Source of the DNA: a virus
Length of the DNA: 36,188 bases
IMG/VR virus record: IMGVR_UViG_3300020437_000024
Location: 1-36,188 of that record
Strand: one strand, 5' to 3'
Part shown: positions 1,461 through 36,021 of the stretch, piece after piece
Layout of the letters: each line of letters opens with the position of its first letter
Position numbering within the stretch: the first letter of the stretch is position 1
Made by a program: the position numbers and the translations under genes
Notes under the pieces: model-generated
Database searches by the model: none
What the model was told of the DNA's origin: nothing
Seen by the model: only the letters and a program-made list of their open reading frames with translations

Positions 1461-1494
1461 CATGATAAATACTTTAACAGGAGTTATTATCATG
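1461..1494 (+). promoter_or_regulatory. Inverted repeat over late promoter and start codon
   Basis: CATGATAA (1461-1468) is a perfect reverse complement of TTATCATG (1487-1494). The right arm contains the start codon of the nucleotidyltransferase and the 18-nt loop holds its ribosome-binding site. The left arm overlaps the late promoter, so RNA started there would lack it. Read-through RNA could fold and hide the start codon. The arms are AT-rich and only 8 bp, so chance cannot be excluded. Confidence 0.4.
1464..1471 (+). promoter_or_regulatory. Late promoter (GATAAATA)
   Basis: GATAAATA matches the T4 late -10 element TATAAATA in seven of eight positions and is shared by all five intergenic sites in the window. 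By T4 spacing the transcript would start near 1477, leaving a leader of about 15 nt that contains AGGAG (1479-1483) before the ATG at 1492. It would drive the nucleotidyltransferase and the baseplate genes behind it. Confidence 0.75.
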
Positions 1495-2106
1495 AGAATG
1501 CATCAGTTACTTTTTGAAGCAAAAGCAACTAAAACTGTTGCTATATATCCAGGTAGGTTCCATCCGTTTCATAAAGGTCATAAGTTTGTATACGACTATT
1601 TATCTAAGAAATATGGCACTGTTTACATAGCAACGAGTGATAAACAAGAAGAAGGTTCACCATTTTCTTTTGAAGAAAAGAAAAAAATGATGATATTGAC
1701 TGGTGTACCTGCAGATAGGATTGTTAACGAAAGACAACCGTATATTGCTTCAAACATAGTAAGTAGGTTAGATCCTAAAGACACTGGTGTAGTTTTTGGT
1801 GTTGGTAAGAAAGACATGGAAGGCGATAGTCCAAGATTCAAGATTGGATTAAAGAAAAACGGAGAGCCTACATATTACCAGAATAACACAGATGATAAAA
1901 GAACGCATGACGAGCATGGTTATTTAGAAGTAGTGCCAACACAAACATTCAAAGTATTAGGTGAACCTGCTACAAGTGCTACAGAATTAAGAAGACAGTA
2001 TGCAACACTAGATGATGCATCTGCTATAAAATTTATAGAAGATTTATTTGGAAAACATGATGTAGAAGTACAAAATATCATGGACGACAAGTTGGGTAGA
2101 AAATAA
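1492..2106 (+). CDS. Cytidylyltransferase-like nucleotidyltransferase with capsid-targeting-like N-terminus
   Basis: Adenylyl/cytidylyltransferase of the HxGH superfamily (NadM, NadD and CoaD relatives), joining a nucleotide to a phosphorylated substrate. GRFHPFHKGH (residues 21-30) holds HxGH at 27-30, and TSATELR (161-167) stands for the ISSTxxR signature. Length from this start is 204 residues. An in-frame ATG at 1462 overlaps the late promoter; the ATG at 1492 has AGGAG 8 nt upstream and is preferred. With that start the protein begins MRMHQLLFEA, close in length and form to the T4 capsid-targeting peptide of internal proteins (MKTYQEFIAEA), including an (L/I)xE-A site for the prohead protease. 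Substrate is unknown: nicotinamide mononucleotide or phosphopantetheine are the obvious candidates. The stop overlaps the next start (TAATG). Confidence 0.87.
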   Translation: MRMHQLLFEAKATKTVAIYPGRFHPFHKGHKFVYDYLSKKYGTVYIATSDKQEEGSPFSFEEKKKMMILTGVPADRIVNERQPYIASNIVSRLDPKDTGVVFGVGKKDMEGDSPRFKIGLKKNGEPTYYQNNTDDKRTHDEHGYLEVVPTQTFKVLGEPATSATELRRQYATLDDASAIKFIEDLFGKHDVEVQNIMDDKLGRK

Positions 2107-2756
2107 TGGACTTAGACAACAGTTACAGTATAGAGGCCAAAGGCAGACTCACTACAAAAACTTCTGGAGCATTCCAGGAAATTTTTGGTGATGCTGATAT
2201 CGTAAAACCTTTGAGAGATTTTAACGGAATAGTGATGCCTTATAATCCTATGCTCAACATGAACTATCAAGCAAACTACAGTAACCAAACACCAATACAC
2301 AGCAACTTTCAATATCCATTTTATCAAAATAGTTCCTTTGAGCCTTTTACAGCGAGTTTTGTTCTTACAGCAAACACACAAAAAGAAGCGAGATACACTC
2401 TCGCTTGTCATCATTTTTTAAGAACGTGTACCAAGATGGTACAATCAGGAAGTACTGATTTTACATCGGCGGACAAGACCGGGTCGCCTCCTCCAGTATT
2501 AAAGTTTAGTTCCTATGGAGATCAAATGTTCAAGGATATACCTGTAGTGATAAACAGTTATAACTTTACTCTTGAAAATGAAAAAATATTTGTAAATGTG
2601 ATTGGCGAAGATGGCAGAAAGACAGAAACATATGTACCAGTTGAATGGACAATGATCGTAAGTCTAATGCCTGCATACAATCCTAAACAGAATCGTAAAA
2701 AATTCAATACAGCAGATTATGCTAATGGTAGACTAATAAGTGGCGGATATCAATAA
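2106..2756 (+). CDS. 48: Baseplate tail-tube junction protein, gp48/gp54-like
   Basis: Probable central baseplate protein of the gp48/gp54 type, which caps the hub and starts tail-tube polymerisation. The 216-residue protein has a conserved-looking core at about residues 45-115, with YNPMLNMNYQANYS followed by an FEPFTASFVLTANTQKEARY stretch and a C-terminal region ending SLMPAYNPKQNRKKF. T4 gp48 and gp54 are longer (over 300 residues), so this is a compact form. The main support is context: it lies directly ahead of gp53 and the hub, joined by TAATG overlaps on both sides. Whether it is closer to gp48 or gp54 cannot be told here. Confidence 0.6.
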   Translation: MDLDNSYSIEAKGRLTTKTSGAFQEIFGDADIVKPLRDFNGIVMPYNPMLNMNYQANYSNQTPIHSNFQYPFYQNSSFEPFTASFVLTANTQKEARYTLACHHFLRTCTKMVQSGSTDFTSADKTGSPPPVLKFSSYGDQMFKDIPVVINSYNFTLENEKIFVNVIGEDGRKTETYVPVEWTMIVSLMPAYNPKQNRKKFNTADYANGRLISGGYQ

Positions 2757-3058
2757 TGGCTCAGAATCACAAAGAATCATCACAGTATTTTGACACACCC
2801 TTGGTAGATAATTCTTATTTGGATATAGCAAGGATAAGACCGTTATTACCAGATGTTACAGATCAAGACTATACTGTGCCACCCAAATTTGCTAATAGAC
2901 CAGATCTATTGGCATTTGAGTTATACAATAACCCAAATCTCTGGTGGGTATTCCAGTTACTGAACATGGATAAACTTGTTGATCCGCAAAACGATCTAGT
3001 TGAAGGTTTAGTAATAAGAATAGCAACCGCTGACAGAGTATTTGGGGAACTATTGTAA
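2756..3058 (+). CDS. 53: Baseplate wedge protein gp53
   Basis: Wedge component that in T4 joins the wedges to the hub. The diagnostic stretch is RPDLLAFELYNNPNLWWVFQ (about residues 47-66), followed by LVDPQNDLVEGLVIRI, which resembles the LysM-like N-terminal portion of gp53. It is 100 residues against 196 in T4, a shortened form that appears to retain only this domain. Both ends are fused to its neighbours by TAATG stop-start overlaps, so its amount is probably set by translational coupling to the preceding gene. Confidence 0.82.
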   Translation: MAQNHKESSQYFDTPLVDNSYLDIARIRPLLPDVTDQDYTVPPKFANRPDLLAFELYNNPNLWWVFQLLNMDKLVDPQNDLVEGLVIRIATADRVFGELL

Positions 3059-5412
3059 TGGCGAATAATTTCAAAGCAAATAGTAGACCTGCAGATAATA
3101 AAACTGCTGACATGAGCTCAACCAGCACATCTCCTGCTAGTACCACAGTATATCTAAAACACGTTAGAGAAAACAAAATGGATAGCATTGATTTACCGAC
3201 TTGTCTATGGTCTTTGTACATGATCAGTGAAGATGCATTTATGAACAATGATGACATGAATGCCATTAAACTATCCGGTAATGCTAGAAAAGTACTGATT
3301 GCTTCTTCAGGTAGGACAGATGAGTTCACTATAAGTAATGTTGTTATAGATACCAAGATAGGTATGCTACCTGGTGTGAACACAAATTTTACATTTGACA
3401 TCACAACACCATATCAATCAGATTTTATAGATAAACTGTTAACATCTTCCGCTTTATTAGGAATCAACAATTATTCAAAGGCGCCACTATTACTAGAATT
3501 GAATATCAAAGGCAGAGATCCAAGTACAGGATTATCAAAACACTTCGCAACTAGAAATTTTGCTGTCTTTATCAAAGGCATGAATTTCAGTATCAATGAG
3601 GAAGGCGCTAGATACAGCATTGACGCCGCTTCTGTTAATGATTTTCCTAGAGGTGATGTAGCAGAAAATCTAAATGAACAAATCTCATTGAAAGGTGATA
3701 ACCCTGAACAACTGCTCAAGGATCTTTCAGCCAAACTACTTGAAAGAGATGAAGCCTCTATTTCTGTAAGGAAGGCCATTGCAGATCAATATGAATTTAC
3801 TTTTACAGATAATGCACAACAGATAGCAACTACAGATATCAAAGTTGACGAATATACTGCACCTAACAAGAGTGCTCCAAAGAACAAAGAAAAAGAAGAA
3901 AAAGTTACTGCCACAGAAAAGACAAATCATACGCCAAGCAAAAAGTTGGCAATTGATTATGAAAAAGGAACTGGCATAACGACTATAATAGAAAATTTAA
4001 TGATGAATTCACCGGTGCTAAAGAAGAAAGTACAAGAATATAATGATAAGAATGAAAAATTTGCAGAGAAACTAAAAGCAGATGGCAAAGCCACAGGTGC
4101 TAAAAAAGTAAACATCAAACAGTTTTATAATTTTGACACACAAGTCACATACTTAGGTTATGATTTCCTAAGAAGAGATTATGCTAAGAAATTTGAATAC
4201 AGAATCAGTATGTACGACACTCCTATTGGCTATGTTGGTCAAACTGATATCTCAACAGATAAAAAACAAAACGTAGATAGAATAAATGAAATTTCTGATA
4301 GGATAGGTATTAAAAAATTATATCACTATATGTACACTGGAAAAAATGATCAGATAATAGAATTACAGTACAACTTTGATAATATGTACTTCGTGGCAAT
4401 AGGTGCCCAATCAGAAATCATTGATAGTTTCAAGTTCCTACCTGGCGTGAGATATGACGAAGGATTAACAAAGAAACTGGCTGAATCTAGAATAGCAAGT
4501 AAAACTTTAAAACTTTATGTACAATATGGTAAATCAACAGATGAAAAAGAAAAATTTAAACTCCAGCAGGAAATAATCAAAGGCAATCCCGATCTTAAAG
4601 CAAGATTGGATGCGGATATGGGCAGTGAAACCTTTGACAGTGCGGTTCAAAAAACATTACTGGAAGCTCAACAAAAAGTAGATGATGCAGACCAGGCACT
4701 AAGAAATTACAATAGTAAATTTGAATCATCAATTGATAATTATACTACACCAGGTGCAGTATCAACAGAAAATGAATTTGTCAAAGCATCAAGCAGAGTA
4801 GGACAAGCACTCAGTAATCAACAGAACAACAATGCCAGAGGCAATGGAGGTCAAATCACTGTTGCAGGAAAAGTAAATCCTAACGTTGGAACCAATACTA
4901 TCTTTGCAGGAGATGTATCTAGACAAGCATTTATTGACTACTACAAAACAAAACCTTTGCCTGTGATGTTCCACGAGACTGGTAAAGTAACACAGACTGG
5001 TGTAGAAGGCGACACAGAACCAGGCGGCGGCTTGTTGGCACAGTATTTTAACAATGCAAAAAATGCTGGCGGTACAGGAGATATGATGAATGTTGAAATG
5101 ACAATCAAAGGCGACTTGATGTATCTTCCAGACTTGTCAAGGAATTCTTCAAAAAATCCACACATTCAAACACAAAAACCTTTGATGATAATAGTTGTTA
5201 GCAATCAAGTCAGTGAATATAATAAAGATGGATTTATGAGGATCAACTCCAAGAACGCACTTAATGGATTGTACATGGTAGTGGCGGCAAATCACAAATG
5301 GACAGATGACGGGCAGTATACTATAACATTAGACTTGCGTAGAGAGTTAGGCACAGACTTGCACGGTCTATCTTTTAGAGGTGCAGAATACATAACTGAT
5401 TTGAATATATAG
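3058..5412 (+). CDS. Large putative baseplate hub protein (gp27 position)
   Basis: 784 residues, placed immediately before the gp5-like spike, where the hub protein that clasps gp5 is expected. The N-terminal third (about 30-250) is beta-rich, with LPGVNTNFTFDITTPYQSDF. A Lys/Glu-rich linker follows (about 265-300), then a mixed middle region and a helical Gln/Lys-rich segment (about 500-570). The C-terminal part (about 675-765) has a TIKGDLMYLPD strand and a GLYMVVAANHKWTDDGQYTI motif, the final-domain pattern of gp27 and late-control-D hub proteins (a Gly-Tyr-x-Val strand, a His, then a Tyr-Thr strand). T4 gp27 is half this size, so extra domains are present. The function is inferred from position and this C-terminal pattern. 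Confidence 0.58.
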   Translation: MANNFKANSRPADNKTADMSSTSTSPASTTVYLKHVRENKMDSIDLPTCLWSLYMISEDAFMNNDDMNAIKLSGNARKVLIASSGRTDEFTISNVVIDTKIGMLPGVNTNFTFDITTPYQSDFIDKLLTSSALLGINNYSKAPLLLELNIKGRDPSTGLSKHFATRNFAVFIKGMNFSINEEGARYSIDAASVNDFPRGDVAENLNEQISLKGDNPEQLLKDLSAKLLERDEASISVRKAIADQYEFTFTDNAQQIATTDIKVDEYTAPNKSAPKNKEKEEKVTATEKTNHTPSKKLAIDYEKGTGITTIIENLMMNSPVLKKKVQEYNDKNEKFAEKLKADGKATGAKKVNIKQFYNFDTQVTYLGYDFLRRDYAKKFEYRISMYDTPIGYVGQTDISTDKKQNVDRINEISDRIGIKKLYHYMYTGKNDQIIELQYNFDNMYFVAIGAQSEIIDSFKFLPGVRYDEGLTKKLAESRIASKTLKLYVQYGKSTDEKEKFKLQQEIIKGNPDLKARLDADMGSETFDSAVQKTLLEAQQKVDDADQALRNYNSKFESSIDNYTTPGAVSTENEFVKASSRVGQALSNQQNNNARGNGGQITVAGKVNPNVGTNTIFAGDVSRQAFIDYYKTKPLPVMFHETGKVTQTGVEGDTEPGGGLLAQYFNNAKNAGGTGDMMNVEMTIKGDLMYLPDLSRNSSKNPHIQTQKPLMIIVVSNQVSEYNKDGFMRINSKNALNGLYMVVAANHKWTDDGQYTITLDLRRELGTDLHGLSFRGAEYITDLNI

Positions 5413-5420
5413 GAAATTAG

Positions 5421-7652
5421 ATGACTAAGAAAAAATATATCACTACAAATAAAGCATACAAGGAAACACCTGCACAATACAAAGGTGGAAACGCCAGTAG
5501 ACACAACGGCATATACATCGCTGTTGTTAAAAAGTCATATGATCCACAGAAAATGGGTAGATTATTAGCATGGGTTCCTGACTTGGGCGGATTGGAAACT
5601 GATGAATCATATTGGAAATCTTTCAGTTATGCAAGTCCATTCGCAGGACAAAGTCCAGCCAAACCAGAATACATACAAGGCACTACATTTGAAAGTACGC
5701 CCGTTGCTTACGGTATGTGGTTTGTGCCACCTGATGAAGGTAATAAGATTGTAGTAGCGTTCCTAGACGGAGACGAGAATAGAGGTATATGGTTTGGTGC
5801 TCTACAAGAAAGTTACATGAATCACAGTATGCCAGATATTGCTTTTGCAAAGTCAAACAAAACAGGTCATCCCTTAGAAAGACCTGTAACAGAATACAAC
5901 AAGCATGAAACTGTTGTCAACCCACACGAACCTGCAAGAGGTAGACCAGAACACACACCACGTTTTAACAGTTTAGTAGAAGCAGGACTTATCAGAGACT
6001 TTGTACGTGGTCCAACAACAAGTAACGCACAAAGAGAAACACCAAGTCAGGTATTTGGTATGAATACACCTGGTCCTATTGACGCTACACTTCCAAATGC
6101 GGCACAGGTAAAGAAAAGACATGGCGGTCATAGTCTGGTATTTGACGATGGTGATATCAGAGGTACTTCAGAATTAGTGAGATTGAGAACCAGGGGTGGA
6201 CATCAGATATTACTACATGATAGTGCTGAATTAATTTATATTTCTAACAAAGAATCAACTGCTTGGGTTGAACTTGATAATAGAGGCAACATAAGCATTT
6301 ATGGCAAAGGTGAGTTCAGTGTCAGAAGTGAAGGCAACATGAACTTGCACACAGATAAAAATTTAAACATTGGTGTTGATGGAAACTTAAATGTTAATGT
6401 TGGTGGTAATACAAGAATTAATCAAAGTGGCACAATGGATCATAGAATTGGTGGTGCAATCAAAGAAACATTTGCAAGTACAAGAGATACTAAGATCACA
6501 GGTGATGTTAAAACTGAATATGAAGCAGATTACGATTTAACAGTTGGTACAGAAACAACAATTAACACAGGTACACAATACAATGTTAGGGCAGGAACTA
6601 ATATTAGGAATAGAGCGTTAGGTGGTGAGTTTACAGTTATCTCTGCATCAGACTTTGTTGCAAAGAGTGCCAATGTACATCTTAACCCTTCTAGTACACC
6701 TGCTTCACCTAATGATGCAGATAGTCCGGCTGAAGCAAGTAAGGTAAGTTTGAAAAGACACAAAAACATCACTGATCCATTAGAAGCATTGAGTCCGGGT
6801 AGTCATTCAAACAACAAAACATCTCCTACATCAACATTTCCTACAATGGAACCTTGGGTGGGTCATAAAACATCAAGTTCAAGTTACAGTTTTACAAACA
6901 GTGCCGCGGCGGGTAACCCGATACAAGAGAACACAAGTAATAGAGCAGAAACTTCGATAGAAGGTAATGCTCCTGCTAAGACTGGCGCAATTAGCTCTGT
7001 AGCAAATAAACCATTGGACTATGAAAATGCAGAAGGTAAATTTGTTGGAACAGGTTATGACAGTGCAGGCAATCCACAATACGAAAAAATTGAAGATTCA
7101 TTAAATGAAACTGATGCAACTGCACAAGGCAAACCCCAATCACGTTTTGAAGTTAACGGTATGACAATAAGTGATAATGGATTAAAATTTGTTATGCATC
7201 ATGAAGGCTTTAAAAAGAATATATACAAAGATGTTGCATTACTTCCTACTATTGGTGTAGGACACTTGCTATTACCAGAAGAGAATCAACGTGGTGCAAT
7301 TAATATTGGTGGTACATTTATTAAGCCACCATTGACAGATGATCAAGTGATGGCATTGTTAAGACAGGATCTTGTAAGATTTATCAAATCAGTCCAAGAA
7401 GCCTGTAAAACAGAACTTACGCAAAACCAATTTGATGCGTGTGTGAGTTTATCATTTAACATTGGTGTTGGTGGATTTAAGAAAAGTAGTGTTGTAAAAC
7501 GTATCAATTCAGATGATTTTCCAAATGTACCTGATGCGTTTATGATGTGGACGAAAGCCACCATAAATGGACAGCGTCAAGTTGTAAAAGGACTTGTAAA
7601 TCGTAGAAGAGCAGAAGTTGACCTATTTACTAAACTTTCTAGCACAGAATAA
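5421..7652 (+). CDS. 5: gp5-like cell-puncturing spike with C-terminal lysozyme
   Basis: Trimeric tail spike that pierces the outer membrane and digests peptidoglycan. Domains in order: OB-fold (about 28-135, with YDPQKMGRLLAWVPDL and VPPDEGNKIVVAFLDGDENR); a beta-helix built of short Gly-containing repeats (about 270-420, e.g. GNLNVNVGGNTRI); a Ser/Thr/Pro/Asn-rich linker (about 430-580); and a T4-lysozyme domain (about 585-743). The lysozyme triad is present with T4 spacing: E595, D604 and T610, in HHEGF and YKDVALLPTIGVGHLL. In T4 gp5 the lysozyme lies between OB-fold and beta-helix, so the order differs here. AGGA lies 6 nt before the ATG. The spike tip would be followed by the enzyme rather than end the protein. 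Confidence 0.9.
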   Translation: MTKKKYITTNKAYKETPAQYKGGNASRHNGIYIAVVKKSYDPQKMGRLLAWVPDLGGLETDESYWKSFSYASPFAGQSPAKPEYIQGTTFESTPVAYGMWFVPPDEGNKIVVAFLDGDENRGIWFGALQESYMNHSMPDIAFAKSNKTGHPLERPVTEYNKHETVVNPHEPARGRPEHTPRFNSLVEAGLIRDFVRGPTTSNAQRETPSQVFGMNTPGPIDATLPNAAQVKKRHGGHSLVFDDGDIRGTSELVRLRTRGGHQILLHDSAELIYISNKESTAWVELDNRGNISIYGKGEFSVRSEGNMNLHTDKNLNIGVDGNLNVNVGGNTRINQSGTMDHRIGGAIKETFASTRDTKITGDVKTEYEADYDLTVGTETTINTGTQYNVRAGTNIRNRALGGEFTVISASDFVAKSANVHLNPSSTPASPNDADSPAEASKVSLKRHKNITDPLEALSPGSHSNNKTSPTSTFPTMEPWVGHKTSSSSYSFTNSAAAGNPIQENTSNRAETSIEGNAPAKTGAISSVANKPLDYENAEGKFVGTGYDSAGNPQYEKIEDSLNETDATAQGKPQSRFEVNGMTISDNGLKFVMHHEGFKKNIYKDVALLPTIGVGHLLLPEENQRGAINIGGTFIKPPLTDDQVMALLRQDLVRFIKSVQEACKTELTQNQFDACVSLSFNIGVGGFKKSSVVKRINSDDFPNVPDAFMMWTKATINGQRQVVKGLVNRRRAEVDLFTKLSSTE

Positions 7653-7672
7653 AAAACTGCTTTAACCTAGGC

Positions 7673-7680
7673 GATAAATA
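7673..7680 (+). promoter_or_regulatory. Late promoter (GATAAATA)
   Basis: GATAAATA lies in the 44-nt gap between the spike gene and gp25. The expected start near 7686 leaves a short leader carrying AGAGG (7686-7690) ahead of the ATG at 7697. It would separately drive gp25, gp6 and the giant wedge gene. I find no stable inverted repeat around this copy, unlike those at 1464 and 26499. Confidence 0.72.
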
Positions 7681-7696
7681 AATATAGAGGCATATA

Positions 7697-8071
7697 ATGA
7701 CGTCATTTGTAGGATATAGTAGTAAAAATAAACTAAAAGGCCCATTCACCTTGCGTGATATGGATCTAAGTATTGCTGATTTTGTAAATCACCTTGAAAC
7801 TAGAAAAGGTTCAAGAGTCATGTTGCCAGAATTTGGAAGTATATTACCTGAATTAGTAATGGAACCATTTACTTCAGATCTAGTTGAACAAATCAAAACT
7901 GAAGTATTGGATATAGCAACAGAAGATCCAAGATTGAAAATTAATAATGTAACAGTTGAGCAGGTTGAACAAGCACTATCTATTAGAATAAATGCGTTAT
8001 ATGTTCCAACCCAAGAAGAAAAAGAAATTGATTTGTTATATGAAAACTTTGGAATAACGGCGGAGAGTTAA
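7697..8071 (+). CDS. 25: Baseplate wedge protein gp25
   Basis: Wedge protein of the gp25/W family, common to contractile tails and type VI secretion (TssE), where it ties the wedge (gp6-gp7) to the sheath initiator. The signature is clear: HLETRKGSRVMLPEFGSIL (about residues 33-51) and EDPRLKINNV (about 76-85), the latter holding the family's EPR-type motif as D-P-R. Length (124) is close to T4 gp25 (132). It is the first gene behind a late promoter, and gp6 starts 1 nt after its stop. Confidence 0.95.
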   Translation: MTSFVGYSSKNKLKGPFTLRDMDLSIADFVNHLETRKGSRVMLPEFGSILPELVMEPFTSDLVEQIKTEVLDIATEDPRLKINNVTVEQVEQALSIRINALYVPTQEEKEIDLLYENFGITAES

Positions 8072-30175: not shown

Positions 30176-30402
30176 TGACAAAACCAAATAAGAAATTTGA
30201 ATTAACAGTTAGAGACATAGAAATAATAGAAATAGCACTTAGAGCAAAAGCAGGACGTAGAGGTATTGCTATTGCTGAAGGTGACACATCTCCGCAACTT
30301 AGAGAAGAGATGCGTGAAATACAAGAACTATTAGGTCGTATACATTCTCAAAAAAATTTCTATGCCAAGTTTACAGATGGCAAACCTTATGTGAGTGGAT
30401 AA
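30175..30402 (+). CDS. Small conserved phage protein, 75 aa
   Basis: Charged, helical protein: FELTVRDIEIIEIALRAKAG, then a second helix REEMREIQELLGRIHSQKNF and a tail ending DGKPYVSG. I recall similar small proteins in marine T4-like phages without knowing a function. An in-frame GTG at 30148 would add nine residues, but ATG 30175 makes a TAATG overlap with the previous stop and a TAATG with the next start, the style of this operon, so I prefer it. Lying directly before a radical-SAM gene, it could be a partner or even a peptide substrate; it has no Cys and no obvious leader-core layout, so the second idea is weak. Confidence 0.68.
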   Translation: MTKPNKKFELTVRDIEIIEIALRAKAGRRGIAIAEGDTSPQLREEMREIQELLGRIHSQKNFYAKFTDGKPYVSG

Positions 30403-31847
30403 TGTCTGGTGAGCTAGATATATACAGAGAAACTAAAAAGAAGATTGACAAAGTCAGTCCTAGTTTCTGTTTGGCTAAATGGCAACAAGTAACATTACAC
30501 TTACACAATGGTCATACACATAGTTGTCACCATCCGCAAACACACAAGATACCTTTACAAGAATTAAAAGACAATCCTAGTGCTTTGCACAATACCAATT
30601 ACAAAAAGCAACAACGTAAAAAAATGCTAGAAGGGTACAGGCCTTCAGAGTGTCAATATTGCTGGAATGTTGAAGACTTAGAAGGTGAACACTTTAGTGA
30701 TAGAACTATTAAAAGTTCAAACGCTGACTGGGCCGCACCTTACTTTGACGATGTTATAGATGCAGGTTGGGAAGGTAATATTACACCACGTGCAGTAGAA
30801 GTAAGTTTTGGTAATGCTTGTAATTTTAAATGCACATACTGTAGTCCTATTTTTAGCAGTAAGTGGCAACAAGAAATACAAGAAAAAGGTCCGTATCCTA
30901 CAAGTCAAAAATTTAATAATCTACATTGGATAGAACAAACGGATCGTAAACCTTTTTTGGAACGTGAAGATAATCCTTATGTAGATGCGTTTTGGCGTTG
31001 GTGGCCTGAACTAAGAACTAAACTTACAACATTTAGAATTACAGGCGGTGAGCCTTTAATGAATAAAAATACATTTCAAGTAATGGATGATCTTATTGAG
31101 AATCCTAATACAGAAATGGCATTAGACTTTAATACAAATTTATGTGTACCAGATAAACTTGTAAAACAGTTTGTAGAAAAAGCAAAAGTATTAACACTTG
31201 AAAACAAAGTTGATAGTGTTAAAATTCATACCAGTGTTGATACGCACGGTGCTCAGGCAGAATGGTTGCGTACAGGATTAAACTATCAGCAATGGTTAGA
31301 TAATATGAATTACATATTAACTGAACTTCCAACTGTTAAAACTGCAATTATGTGTACAACTAATGCATTAAGTTTACCAAAGTTTAAATTTATGTTAAGA
31401 GACTTGTATAACTTAAAAGTAGATCATTATTTAGATGACAGAGCACCAGATGCAGGAGGCAACGGTTCACAATATGATAGAAGAGTTAGTACTGCTATCA
31501 CAATGGCAATACTAAGACATCCGCATCATTTAAATGCACAGATACTACCAAAGGATCCATACTATTGGAATTTTTTAAATGATGCTAGAAATTATATGGC
31601 ATCTAAGGAAGAAGGTAAACATGGTAACAAGCACTATCAAGGTTTCTTTGATTGGGAACTTGATACTATGGATAGATTTATAGATTACACTAAAAGCACC
31701 GTACAAGAAAGAGACTTCAATTTAGAAACTGCCAGAAGAGATTTTAGAATATTTGTTGATGAAAGCGATAAACGTAATGGAACAAACTTCTTAAAAACGT
31801 TTCCTGAATATGCAGATTTTTATCATAGTTGTGGTGCATTACTATGA
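30402..31847 (+). CDS. Radical SAM protein A (pair 1)
   Basis: 481 residues. The radical SAM core motif CNFKCTYC gives C140, C144 and C147 for the SAM-binding [4Fe-4S] cluster, and RITGGEPL (GGE 215-217) contacts the SAM amino group. An N-terminal domain supplies C23, C42, C84 and C87 (FCLAKW, SCHHP, CQYCW), spaced to hold a second cluster, a twitch/SPASM-like arrangement moved ahead of the core. Such enzymes make 5'-deoxyadenosyl radicals; the relatives with auxiliary clusters mostly modify peptides or proteins, some act on sugars. It is paralogous to the gene at 33031, with identical N-terminal cysteine spacing. It starts by TAATG coupling and ends in an ATGA overlap. Confidence 0.87.
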   Translation: MSGELDIYRETKKKIDKVSPSFCLAKWQQVTLHLHNGHTHSCHHPQTHKIPLQELKDNPSALHNTNYKKQQRKKMLEGYRPSECQYCWNVEDLEGEHFSDRTIKSSNADWAAPYFDDVIDAGWEGNITPRAVEVSFGNACNFKCTYCSPIFSSKWQQEIQEKGPYPTSQKFNNLHWIEQTDRKPFLEREDNPYVDAFWRWWPELRTKLTTFRITGGEPLMNKNTFQVMDDLIENPNTEMALDFNTNLCVPDKLVKQFVEKAKVLTLENKVDSVKIHTSVDTHGAQAEWLRTGLNYQQWLDNMNYILTELPTVKTAIMCTTNALSLPKFKFMLRDLYNLKVDHYLDDRAPDAGGNGSQYDRRVSTAITMAILRHPHHLNAQILPKDPYYWNFLNDARNYMASKEEGKHGNKHYQGFFDWELDTMDRFIDYTKSTVQERDFNLETARRDFRIFVDESDKRNGTNFLKTFPEYADFYHSCGALL

Positions 31848-33022
31848 CCAACAAACCTATATGTAAAGCACCATTCATTGCATTAAGATATTCTGCTGAC
31901 GGATATATGGTTCCTTGTTGTTGGATGAAAACTATTCCTTACTTAAAGAAGAATTCAACATCTATTGAATCTTATTGGGAAAATAAAACTATTAAAAAAA
32001 TTAGACAGCAGATGTTAGATGGTGTATTACCAGAAGGTTGCAAAAGATGCACAAATGTTGATGATACTATTAACTATAGTAGGATAGAATTTTATGACAG
32101 AATACTTGATAAAGATTTAGATAATTACAGTGTTGATCAACCTTTAGGACTTTATCAGATAGATTTAAATTTTAGTAACAAATGTAACTTAAAATGCAGA
32201 CACTGCGGGCCATGGAATAGTACTGCATGGGTAAAAGATTATAAACAATTACAACAACTAGAGCCTCACTTTAAAAATCTTAATTATAAGATAAACACGG
32301 ATAGCACAGATTTAATACATCAAAAAAAGTATTTTAAAAATGTTAAAAGACTAGATTTCAAAGGCGGTGAGCCTATGATGCAAGATGAAATGTATATCCT
32401 TTTGGATAATCTAATTAAATGGGATTATGCAAAAAACATACATCTTGTATATATCACTAACGGAACTAAACCTTATGATCATTTAAAGGACCAGTGGAAT
32501 AAATTTAAAAGTATAGGAATAGGTTTAAGTTTTGAAGCAACCGGTGATTTATTTTCCTATGTAAGAGGAGGTGAAGGATTTACTTGGAAACAATTTAATG
32601 AGAACTTACAAGGTTATACTAAAATTAATAATTTACAATATCTATCACTAACACATTCAATAATGAACTTTACATTATTTGATTTACCTCAGCAAGTAGA
32701 ATTTATTATTGACACATATCATAGATATAATTTGAAACCAAAGGCTACAGTACATAATCATTTCTTTGATAATGTTGTAACAAATCCAGCATTTTTAGAT
32801 CCTGTGATATTGCATAAGGATATAAAATTAAAATTAATAAAATTATATGAAAAATATAATTATAAGAGTATTGAGCCTATAAAGAATCGTTTAATATCAA
32901 CACTAGAATATGACAACGAAAAACAATGGAAATTGTTTAAGTCTTATACTAAATCATTAGATAAAATAAGAAATACAAATTTAATAGATCATGTACCTGA
33001 GTTTGAAGATTATTTAGAATAA
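31844..33022 (+). CDS. Radical SAM protein B (pair 2)
   Basis: 392 residues from ATG 31844, chosen over an upstream TTG because it overlaps the previous stop as ATGA. Core motif CNLKCRHC: C114, C118, C121; FKGGEPM: GGE 174-176. N-terminal extra cysteines are C7, C25, C26, C66 and C69 (PICKAPF, VPCCWM, GCKRC), a twitch-like set including a CC pair. It is a paralogue of protein D at 34744 (ICxAPF versus FCMAPW; PCCW versus PCCM). The C-terminal half is Lys-, Asn- and Ile-rich. Substrate unknown. Among the four it is the shortest and, by eye, the most AT-rich. Confidence 0.86.
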   Translation: MTNKPICKAPFIALRYSADGYMVPCCWMKTIPYLKKNSTSIESYWENKTIKKIRQQMLDGVLPEGCKRCTNVDDTINYSRIEFYDRILDKDLDNYSVDQPLGLYQIDLNFSNKCNLKCRHCGPWNSTAWVKDYKQLQQLEPHFKNLNYKINTDSTDLIHQKKYFKNVKRLDFKGGEPMMQDEMYILLDNLIKWDYAKNIHLVYITNGTKPYDHLKDQWNKFKSIGIGLSFEATGDLFSYVRGGEGFTWKQFNENLQGYTKINNLQYLSLTHSIMNFTLFDLPQQVEFIIDTYHRYNLKPKATVHNHFFDNVVTNPAFLDPVILHKDIKLKLIKLYEKYNYKSIEPIKNRLISTLEYDNEKQWKLFKSYTKSLDKIRNTNLIDHVPEFEDYLE

Positions 33023-33030
33023 ATATTGAT

Positions 33031-34569
33031 ATGCCAACTTATAAGAACAAAGACGAATCATATACAGAATACAGAGACAGGGTAGTAGATGCTATTAGTC
33101 CAAGTTTCTGTGGAGCAAAATGGTATAATGCAACTGTATGGTTAGGTAGCGGAACTACCACTAGTTGCCATCACCCGCCGGCACATAAAATACCAGTAGA
33201 AGAATTAAAAAGAAGTTACAAAGCATTACACAACACAGAATATAAAAAACTTGTTCGTAAACAAATGCTTGATGGAGAACGTCCAACTGAATGCGAATAC
33301 TGTTGGAAGATCGAAGATCTTGGAAAAGATAAAGTAAGTGATAGAGTATACAAAAGTGTTATCTATAGTGATAGTGCTTTGAAAGAAGCAAAAACAAAAT
33401 ACGATTGGACACAAGATGTAGATCTAAAGACATTAGAAATAGCATTTGATGCAAACTGTAATTATGCTTGTTCATACTGCAATGCTAGTTTTAGTACAAC
33501 ATGGATGAATGATATTCGTAAGAACGGTGCATATCAAAACCTAGTATCAGATGGTGCAAGGGCATTCCAACAAGATGGTAAGTGGGCACAACCTTATGGT
33601 GTAAAGAACAAAGACAATCCTTACACAGAAGCATTTTGGGAATGGTGGACAAAAGAGTTGCAATACAGTTTAGAAGAACTTAGAGTCACAGGTGGCGAAG
33701 CAACTATGTCACAAGACTTTTGGAAACTTATGGATTGGTGGCAAGAAAATCCTAGTTGTGAAGTTAGACTTGCTGTTAACAGCAACTTAGGTCCAAAGCC
33801 AGAACTTATGCAAAGACTATGCGATGCCACACATAGTTTCAAGTACTTTGATTTGTATACAAGTAACGAAGCAACAGGCCTACAAGCAGAATATATAAGA
33901 GATGGTTTAGTATGGGATACATGGCTCAGTAACTGTCGTAAAATGATGAATGAGGGTAACTTACGTGAATTCCATATGATGCTTACTATTAACGCTCTAT
34001 GCTTGTTTAGCCTACCAGAATTTTTAGATGAAATGTTAAAACTAAAAACAGAAAAAGATAATAAACATTTCCCTACAATGAGTTTTAACATATTGCGTTT
34101 TCCTAGTTTCCAAAGTGCATTAGTGTTACCACAAGAAATAAGACAAGAACGTGCTGATGCATTACAGCAATGGATCGATACTAATGGAGATAACAAGTAT
34201 ATACACGAAATGGAAATTGATGGAATCAAAAGATTGATCTCTTACCTAGAAGAGGTCGAAGAAGGTCATAAGTATACAAGTAGTATTGAAAGCAGACATA
34301 GAGACTTCAAGAGTTTTTATATGCAATATGACCTACGAAGAAACAAAAGTTTTGAAAAGGCTTTTGGTAATCACCCTAAACTAATAGATTGGTATAATAG
34401 TTTACCAGTCACTAACATAGAACCTATAGCAGGATTGTATGACGGCGATAGCACAAAAGGTTGGAAACACAAACAAGAACTTGAAGAACGTGCTAAACAA
34501 GAAGGCTGGGTACTTGATCCGCAAGGTGCTAATCCAGGCTCACAGGAGTATGTAGTAAAAAATGGATAA
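33031..34569 (+). CDS. Radical SAM protein C (pair 1, GGEA variant)
   Basis: 512 residues. Core CNYACSYC: C143, C147, C150. The GGE motif is at 221-223 but followed by Ala-Thr (VTGGEATMS) instead of the usual Pro. N-terminal C27, C46, C88 and C91 (SFCGAKW, SCHHPP, CEYCW) have exactly the spacing of protein A, so A and C are duplicates. It extends further at the C-terminus (to GSQEYVVKNG). It starts 8 nt after protein B with no clear Shine-Dalgarno sequence, the only loose junction in the cassette, and overlaps the small coiled-coil gene at its end. It most likely acts on a related but different target from A. Confidence 0.85.
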   Translation: MPTYKNKDESYTEYRDRVVDAISPSFCGAKWYNATVWLGSGTTTSCHHPPAHKIPVEELKRSYKALHNTEYKKLVRKQMLDGERPTECEYCWKIEDLGKDKVSDRVYKSVIYSDSALKEAKTKYDWTQDVDLKTLEIAFDANCNYACSYCNASFSTTWMNDIRKNGAYQNLVSDGARAFQQDGKWAQPYGVKNKDNPYTEAFWEWWTKELQYSLEELRVTGGEATMSQDFWKLMDWWQENPSCEVRLAVNSNLGPKPELMQRLCDATHSFKYFDLYTSNEATGLQAEYIRDGLVWDTWLSNCRKMMNEGNLREFHMMLTINALCLFSLPEFLDEMLKLKTEKDNKHFPTMSFNILRFPSFQSALVLPQEIRQERADALQQWIDTNGDNKYIHEMEIDGIKRLISYLEEVEEGHKYTSSIESRHRDFKSFYMQYDLRRNKSFEKAFGNHPKLIDWYNSLPVTNIEPIAGLYDGDSTKGWKHKQELEERAKQEGWVLDPQGANPGSQEYVVKNG

Positions 34570-34747
34570 CGAAAAATTAGAAAGACTAGAAACAAAAATA
34601 GAAAAATTATCTGTGCAAGTTGAAAAATTGAGCTTGACAGTAGAAAGATTAAGTAATAAACTAGAGCAACATATACAGTTTATTGACAACACATATGAAG
34701 GTCTAAGAAACCCAATCGAAGCGGCGAAACGTTTTTTAAGAAGATGA
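34562..34747 (+). CDS. Small coiled-coil protein, 61 aa
   Basis: MDNEKLERLETKIEKLSVQV and the following residues repeat leucine/valine/isoleucine every three or four positions with charged residues between, a clear heptad coiled coil over about residues 4-42, then a short tail ending AAKRFLRR. It overlaps the end of radical SAM C (8 nt) and the start of D (4 nt), so all three are translationally linked. It may be an oligomerising adaptor for the enzymes. No Cys, no signal peptide. Coiled-coil repeats this short can also be structural connectors. Confidence 0.75.
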   Translation: MDNEKLERLETKIEKLSVQVEKLSLTVERLSNKLEQHIQFIDNTYEGLRNPIEAAKRFLRR

Positions 34748-36021
34748 CAGTAAACAAAGACAGCAAGGCATTTTGTATGGCACCATGGACACACCTTCAC
34801 GTGTGGCCTAATGGTAATGCATATCCTTGTTGCATGACGCATATGGATCAACCAATTGGTAATGCAAGAAAAAGTAAATTGTATGACATTTGGAATAACG
34901 AAAAAATGCGTAAACTTAGACTTGATATGCTACAAGGCAAGTTCAATAGTCTATGCAATAGATGTTTTGAACTAGACAATTCAGGTAGTAACAGTTTAAG
35001 AAAACACATGAATAGAACGTTTACTACACATGATGATGTTGTTGAATCTACTAAAGAAGATGGCACAGTTGACAAGTTCAACATGGCATACATGGATATT
35101 AGATTCAGTAATATTTGTAACTTAAAATGTAGATCATGTGGTCCACATTTAAGTAGTGGTTGGTATGAAGATCACAAGAAATTGTATCCCAATGGTAACA
35201 ATGACTTTCCAAAGATTGATCATGCAACTGATGATCCTGAAACACTTTGGCAACAACTAGTACCATTGCTTGATACAACAGAAGAGATCTATTTTGCGGG
35301 AGGTGAACCTTTGATAATGGAGGAACACTATCGTATTTTAAAATGGCTTATAGAGAACAACAGAACAGATGTAAGGATAAGATATAATACAAACTTTAGC
35401 AAACTAAAATTCAAGAAAGATGATGTTATAGAACTTTGGAAAAAGTTTAACAGTGTAAGTATAGGAGCAAGTCTTGACGCTATGGGGCAACGTGGCGAAT
35501 ACATGAGAAAAGGTCAAAACTGGGCTGAAGTTGTTTCCAATCGAGAACGCTTAATCCAAGAGGCTCCACACGTTGAATTTTTTGTTAGTTCAACTTATAG
35601 TCTAATGAACAGTCTTCATCTGCCGGACTTTCACAGAGAATGGTTAGAAAAGAAATACATAGACAAACATAGTTTTAACATCAATATCTTAACTGAGCCT
35701 AGGGCTTATAACCTACAGATATTACCACACGAAGTCAAAGTACTAGTGGAACAAAAAATAGAAAACCATATAAACTGGTTGCAAGAAACATACGGTAATA
35801 TGGAATACGGACATGAAAACTATCAGCATGACAACGCAGAGAGTGTAATAAATCACTGGAAGTCAGCAGTTAAGTTCATGTACACAAATGACAGAAGCGA
35901 TGAGATATCGCACTTTTTTGATCGTAACAATAAAGTTGATGGTATTAGAAACGAGAAGTTCTTTGATACATTTCCAGAACTAGATGTATTAAGAAGAAAG
36001 TATTCTAATCACAGGGTCTAA
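34744..36021 (+). CDS. Radical SAM protein D (pair 2, twitch type)
   Basis: 425 residues. The N-terminal block FCMAPWTHLHVWPNGNAYPC gives C11, C29, C30, with C71 and C74 in LCNRCFE, the five extra cysteines of twitch-type enzymes. Core CNLKCRSC: C125, C129, C132; AGGEPLIM: GGE 186-188. It is a paralogue of protein B. Relatives annotated as twitch-domain radical SAM proteins are frequent in marine T4-like phages, where their job is not known to me. It is the last gene of the cassette. Its 3' end overlaps the convergent gene by 33 nt. Confidence 0.88.
   Translation: MTVNKDSKAFCMAPWTHLHVWPNGNAYPCCMTHMDQPIGNARKSKLYDIWNNEKMRKLRLDMLQGKFNSLCNRCFELDNSGSNSLRKHMNRTFTTHDDVVESTKEDGTVDKFNMAYMDIRFSNICNLKCRSCGPHLSSGWYEDHKKLYPNGNNDFPKIDHATDDPETLWQQLVPLLDTTEEIYFAGGEPLIMEEHYRILKWLIENNRTDVRIRYNTNFSKLKFKKDDVIELWKKFNSVSIGASLDAMGQRGEYMRKGQNWAEVVSNRERLIQEAPHVEFFVSSTYSLMNSLHLPDFHREWLEKKYIDKHSFNINILTEPRAYNLQILPHEVKVLVEQKIENHINWLQETYGNMEYGHENYQHDNAESVINHWKSAVKFMYTNDRSDEISHFFDRNNKVDGIRNEKFFDTFPELDVLRRKYSNHRV

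Follow-up and report, generated by a model that had tools for sequence, protein, structure and literature searches.

The window, 36,188 bases long, is part of the genome of an uncultured virus, a marine T4-like phage; the presence of gp55, gp47 and baseplate genes places it in the T4 superfamily. Its gp55 is nearest to those of jumbo phages of the Rak2-like group and phages related to them (Phosso, 46%; PA5oct, 45%; Atu_ph07, 44%). A gp55 search for larger relatives returned two loci, which were of little use. No head genes, including a gp21-type protease gene, were found on the 36 kb fragment. Four radical-SAM proteins, two of them with SPASM domains, are encoded in tandem at 30402-36021, and one of these lies behind an ATAAATA site at 33019.

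An open reading frame at 1492-2106 on the + strand encodes a 204-aa HIGH-type adenylyl/nucleotidyltransferase (NTase; NMNAT/PPAT-like), as assigned from Pfam, PHROGs, PDB profile and predicted fold. The gene is the first of the baseplate operon and is divergent from the neighboring gene for a gp55-type late sigma factor (512-1363, - strand; phrog_12791, E = 2e-91), which adjoins the NTase in every clade relative whose contig reaches that far. The next three operon genes (2106-5412, + strand) encode a virion structural protein, a gp53-like baseplate wedge and a further virion structural protein. Across the clade, the NTase is 67-73% identical, compared with approximately 50% for gp55 and mostly 22-45% for the baseplate genes (2106-8071), a difference that could mean either that the NTase is strongly constrained or that it alone has been exchanged.

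The translation begins MRMHQLLFEAKATKTVAIYPGRFHPFHKGH, with the N-terminus MRMHQLLFE|AKATK. The start codon that a preliminary description had chosen by its Shine-Dalgarno sequence held up: AGGAG (1479-1483, + strand) was read directly 8 nt ahead of the ATG at 1492, and the start aligns at this position in 11 relatives with the same neighborhood. The late promoter claimed in that description was likewise found, as a T4-type core ATAAATA at 1465-1471 (+ strand), 20 nt ahead of the ATG of the NTase-baseplate operon. An alternative ATG at 1462 precedes the promoter core and would thus fall outside any transcript starting just behind that core. A mismatch-free ATAAATA is present approximately 20-25 nt before the NTase start in all 11 syntenic relatives, in which the gene lies between gp55 and the baseplate operon. 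The window contains eight ATAAATA sites, against a chance expectation of about 20 over both strands; seven of the eight are on the + strand, at gene ends or between genes, just ahead of + genes. Promoter and gene position together indicate that the NTase is probably expressed late.

The NTase matched the Pfam family CTP_transf_like (PF01467, E = 3.7e-5) and the PHROGs cytidyltransferase family phrog_395 (E = 2.8e-7 over residues 11-183). The nucleotide-binding motif GRFHPFHKGH occupies residues 21-30 (1552-1581, + strand), and G21, R22, F23, P25, F26, H27, G29 and H30 are invariant in 39 relatives. A SATELR motif at residues 162-167 (1975-1992, + strand), in which S162 and R167 are invariant in the same number of relatives, is the counterpart of the adenylyltransferase motif ISxTxxR. 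The structure model had a mean pLDDT of 90.8 and resembled both NMNAT 2r5w (Z 11.5, rmsd 3.3 over 154) and PPAT 3l92 (Z 11.4, rmsd 3.1 over 148). The motifs and the predicted fold thus assign the enzyme to the HIGH-superfamily adenylyltransferases. Residues 1-7 have pLDDT values below 50 and structural matches start around residue 13, so the leader is predicted to lie outside the fold.

The best solved matches by sequence profile were NMNATs (2qjt, 2e-8; 1f9a, 4e-6), with PPAT behind at 5e-4. Based on the fold and on the closest solved structure by sequence, the substrate is most likely NMN, which would be converted to NAD+. Phosphopantetheine is matched nearly as well by the modeled fold, since the comparison did not separate NMNAT from PPAT (both Z about 11). 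The earlier suggestion of action on NAD or CoA is consistent with the fold. There is only slightly less than an even chance that the enzyme acts outside NAD metabolism, for example as a phosphopantetheine adenylyltransferase, a cytidylyltransferase or an RNA-end enzyme with a KxDG-type ligase domain, any of which would be compatible with packaging. This reading draws on the structural tie, on phage annotations that read cytidyltransferase, and on KxDG-type domains (motif recognized by eye) fused or adjacent to the NTase in L044, L063, L079, Mel-JY01 and S-SZBM1, whereas the preference of the sequence profile for NMNATs speaks against it. Such ligase-like domains, also recognized by eye, occur with the NTase in either order, fused or adjacent, at L044:8846, L063:8633, L067:7131, L079:4768, L086:7923-9842 and L130:5478-6671, and some of the junctions carry F-E-E-A or I-A-E-G.

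The first nine residues, MRMHQLLFE (1492-1518, + strand), are proposed to be a capsid-targeting propeptide on the grounds of a conserved pattern, motif enrichment, low pLDDT and likeness to gp67-like proteins. L7-F8-E9|A10 is encoded at 1510-1521, and the predicted cut lies between bases 1518 and 1519 (E9|A10). As the preliminary description had pointed out, this site fits the rule for the T4 gp21 protease, which cuts after L/I-x-E (PMC9026906). Its comparison with T4 leaders was borne out in kind but not in the fixed length of ten residues, as T4 leaders have 7-19 residues.

In all 11 syntenic relatives, the NTase has a short leader ending in [L/I/F]xEA. Within the close clade the leaders are MRMHQLLFEA (window), MLICEIFNEA, MLINEVISFLEA, MLITEILNLSEA, MLITEIVNLAEA and MRINDILTEA, and a more distant syntenic relative has MKLNHILTEA. 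Only 3-5 of 10 leader positions are identical to the window, compared with about 68-74% identity of the catalytic domains in the close clade; apart from its ending, the leader diverges far faster than the catalytic domain. Relatives in other gene contexts have shorter or different leaders that still end in [LIF]xEA (MRIFEA, MRITEA, MKVAELFEA and MFISELFEA), and many others are leaderless and start at the catalytic strand. Altogether, 15 of the 17 sampled leaders carry [LIF]xEA, and the remaining two have LxE followed by D or E.

When residues were shuffled, a single leader showed [LIF]xEA with a frequency of 1.4-14% (window leader, 3.5%); no combined p-value was calculated because the sampled leaders are related and not independent. 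Related loci supplied 1187 distinct ORF starts, of which 38 matched ^M..[LIF]xEA, compared with 9.3 expected by shuffling, and about a third of the 38 were NTases of the window enzyme's family. The same start had been proposed as something to seek on other late proteins of this genome; in the window, the strict N-terminal motif occurred in no other called ORF. When the species genomes of 84,980 bacteria and archaea were scanned for NTase relatives, one match came up, on a phage-like MAG contig. As to the earlier question of whether the extension is confined to phage copies, no cellular homologue was found to carry it, and by these sequence searches the NTase family appears to have no clear cellular member.

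The head genes of relatives were used to place the leader in the context of the prohead protease. A head-gene search over 34 related records yielded one usable close relative, G001 (NTase 72% identical), which is the closest relative contig with head genes and encodes gp20, a gp67-like protein, gp21, gp22 and gp23. The gp22 proteins of seven related phages had L at P3, before xE[AGS], in 39 cases (9.2 expected) and I in 26 cases (4.9 expected), indicating a site preference of [L/I]xE|[A/G/S]. The MCPs of related phages have a fitting site near residue 40, for example RALTE|S and RHLSE|A. L-F-E|A of the window agrees with the preference seen in gp22 and gp23 of its relatives. F at P3, which is found in some leaders of the closest clade (L002-L005; IFNE, FLE), is absent from the gp22 sites.

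The window leader resembles the starts of prohead-core (gp67-like) proteins of related phages, namely PA5oct MKINDIITEG (MKINDIITE|G), BF MLDEIFEA, RaK2 MLFKDIFES and Atu_ph07 MKLTELFNPLTES; these proteins were assigned as gp67-like by position between portal and prohead protease, by size and, for two of them, by a shared PHROG. A profile built from NTase leaders only ranked PA5oct gp333, a gp67-like virion protein tagged by ESI-MS/MS, first of about 1,930 other ORF starts, with a score of 15.8; the highest score among 1,941 shuffled starts was 7.9. One leader regex had been written after the PA5oct examples were seen, which makes the NTase-only profile the fairer comparison, even if the thought of looking at gp67-like proteins came from the same data. 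In PA5oct, [LIVFM]xE[AGS] within the first 16 residues was found in 9 of 93 mass-spectrometry-tagged proteins and 4 of 320 others (p = 3e-4), this being one of nine motif and length combinations tried, six of which gave p below 0.05. Strict [LIF]xEA was rejected as a mark of PA5oct virion proteins (1/93 versus 2/320, non-significant), in contrast to the broader [AGS] form.

Several phage loci also encode small proteins of 65-80 aa in which a CTS-like leader (e.g., MRANEFIKE) is joined exactly at E to a copy of the mature N-arm of the MCP (L015:14116-14358, L016:15316-15558, L017:13652-13894, L020:13969-14181, L036:14256-14453 and L046:16038-16250). The N-arm copy reads TASAGATTSGNIAVVVNP, compared with LTE|SASAGATMAGNVATLNKV in the MCP. 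A similar stretch follows VEE in PA5oct gp281, which was tagged by ESI-MS/MS. In L033 (10644-11822) and L050 (10632-12440), a tagged NTase gene is immediately followed by one for a peptidoglycan-binding protein (a Pfam result for L050), and these two proteins also have leader-like starts, MLLRELFNRNLNEAEAP and MLLRELFYKTLNEAEAP, respectively.

We consider it very unlikely that the enzyme is packaged with its leader uncut or partly cut, serving as an anchor to core or shell. Targeting and processing are separable within the T4 leader (PMC9026906), and LED, FEE or F at P3 in some relatives may be poor sites, as such an anchor would allow. The window site itself, however, fits the gp22/gp23 preference, and the exact junction at E in the small N-arm proteins also argues for cleavage.

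Several cyanophage virions contain NMNAT-like or cytidylyltransferase proteins whose route of entry has been left unexplained: the NMNAT of S-SCSM1 and the cytidylyltransferases of S-CREM2 and S-SZBM1 were detected in CsCl-purified virions, and T4-GC190 of S-SM1 in purified virions (PMC9602691, PMC10665884, PMC9146016, PMC3037559). The authors of one of these proteomes allowed for the possibility that the enzyme had been carried over in the CsCl preparation. When the genes of the three enzymes from CsCl-purified virions were read, all were found to have a short leader ending in [L/I]xE|A: MKSFLQFLKE|A in S-SCSM1, MKNFSSFLTE|A in S-CREM2 and MRFRQFIIE|A in S-SZBM1. Five more phages of that family start alike (MKSFSQFLTET, MKKFNAFLIEA, MKKFSTFISEA, MKGFSNFLIEA and MKKFSEIIEA), as does the S-RIM8 enzyme (MKKFSAFLTEA). 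In S-CREM2 and S-N03 the enzyme gene is separated from gp55 by no more than one short gene, and in S-CREM2 it is placed directly behind gp55, as in the window. The cytidyltransferase gp177 of PA5oct has neither such a leader nor a mass-spectrometry tag.

The virion enzymes of cyanophages (S-SM1 T4-GC190, S-SCSM1 gp91, S-CREM2 gp154 and S-SZBM1 gp140, together with that of S-CBWM1 according to PMC9602691) share phrog_395 and the HIGH fold with the window NTase. A direct sequence link was rejected, with blastp E values of 0.005 or worse and a marginal profile-sequence comparison (hhalign probability 9%, E = 0.004). The connection instead runs through the shared phrog_395 profile (window, E = 2.8e-7; S-SCSM1, 1e-104; S-CREM2, 2e-59) and the fold, and because the pairwise similarity is marginal, the claim is one of shared family and fold, not of orthology. 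The cyanophage enzymes also differ from the window NTase in that the sampled proteins are longer (286-424 aa) and that their leaders, of the form MKxFxxFLxEA, come nearer to the T4 type; the published accounts consulted do not mention a targeting leader.

Among the known systems, T4 IPI-IPIII and Alt with their capsid-targeting sequence (CTS) are comparable in the short leader ending in L/I-x-E before a small residue, in late expression and in the gp21/gp22/gp23 head system, which is present here in the window's relatives. They differ in that the window cargo is a HIGH-type adenylyltransferase whose packaging we infer, and its leader is of another class, M[K/R/L]-hydrophobic-x-x-hydrophobic-hydrophobic-x-E, which is closer to the gp67-like proteins of RaK2/PA5oct-type phages. 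Atu_ph07 gp695 and the Phosso adenylyltransferase occupy the same slot between gp55 and the baseplate operon, but they are leaderless and have the motif variants GRFNPPTDGH and GRCNPPTKGH, respectively. Since this slot behind gp55 can hold a leaderless enzyme, late-operon position alone is no proof of packaging and was rejected as such.

The same two phages, and the many relatives elsewhere that start directly at the catalytic strand, would suit an ordinary intracellular late enzyme, whose leader would be a variable tail with [L/I]xEA as a by-product of a favored start (M-R/K/L-hydrophobic). This explanation appears improbable, as [LIF]xE is retained in 17 of 17 sampled leaders despite turnover at the remaining positions, both gp67-like proteins and virion enzymes show the same pattern, and among the called ORFs of the window the motif is unique to this gene. 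The tag-like first nine residues instead suggest that virus particles probably carry the enzyme and inject it, and packaging by a capsid-targeting leader is well supported by homology, with packaging, cutting and injection projected from homologues.

We therefore regard it as probable that the leader is a capsid-targeting tag of the T4 kind and that the NTase is packaged, cut behind E9, injected and active early, most likely in converting NMN to NAD+. The enzyme would be made late from the gp55-dependent operon, and its leader would bind the prohead core. A gp21-like protease of the phage would then cut behind E9, releasing free enzyme from A10 inside the head. Injected with the DNA, this enzyme would act within minutes of the start of infection, adenylylating a small substrate of nucleotide type. 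The central proposal of the preliminary description, a protease-removed targeting leader on a late metabolic enzyme, is thus supported by the promoter in 11 of 11 syntenic relatives, the lack of a clear cellular family member in the genomes scanned, the gp67-like likeness and the tagged cyanophage virion relatives.

Two relatives are very long proteins with the NTase first, L020:10001-13423 (1140 aa) and L036:9977-13762 (1261 aa). The former also contains a Cu/Zn superoxide dismutase and DUF5661, and the latter a GNAT-like segment common to DarB-like and PLxRFG proteins. Polyvalent or DarB-type injected proteins follow a similar injected-cargo logic, and the multi-domain NTase relatives L020 and L036 share the GNAT-like segment with DarB-like and PLxRFG proteins; in contrast, the window enzyme is single-domain, and the N-terminal signal of P1 DarB, as described, is not of the L/IxE type. 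Across the long relatives, internal [LIVF]xEA behind the NTase domain occurred 42 times compared with 13.2 expected, which in related sequences is only a lead. It is conceivable, though rather unlikely, that marine T4-like phages carry an injected kit of NAD-making or related enzymes with a shared prohead tag, and that in some relatives NTase, Cu/Zn superoxide dismutase and GNAT are joined as a polyprotein with [L/I/V]xEA at the domain borders, to be cut apart by the prohead protease within the head; in that case the NTase would refill NAD+ before NAD-depleting host defences act.

T4 provides known examples of tagged internal proteins, and cyanophages provide examples of NMNAT-like proteins in the virion. 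No earlier report linking virion NMNAT-like enzymes to a T4-type capsid-targeting leader was found among open-licence papers. What is new is their combination, in which the leader belongs to a class also seen on gp67-like proteins of jumbo relatives, and the tag that would place NMNAT in the virion. A short leader with a prohead-protease site offers a direct, testable mechanism for virion entry, and would make injected cargo predictable from sequence in uncultured marine phages, where virion proteomes are impossible. Published work had already suggested that NMNAT from the virion reaches the host cell and alters NAD levels there. If the substrate of the window enzyme is NMN, an NAD-restoring enzyme would be delivered at time zero of infection.
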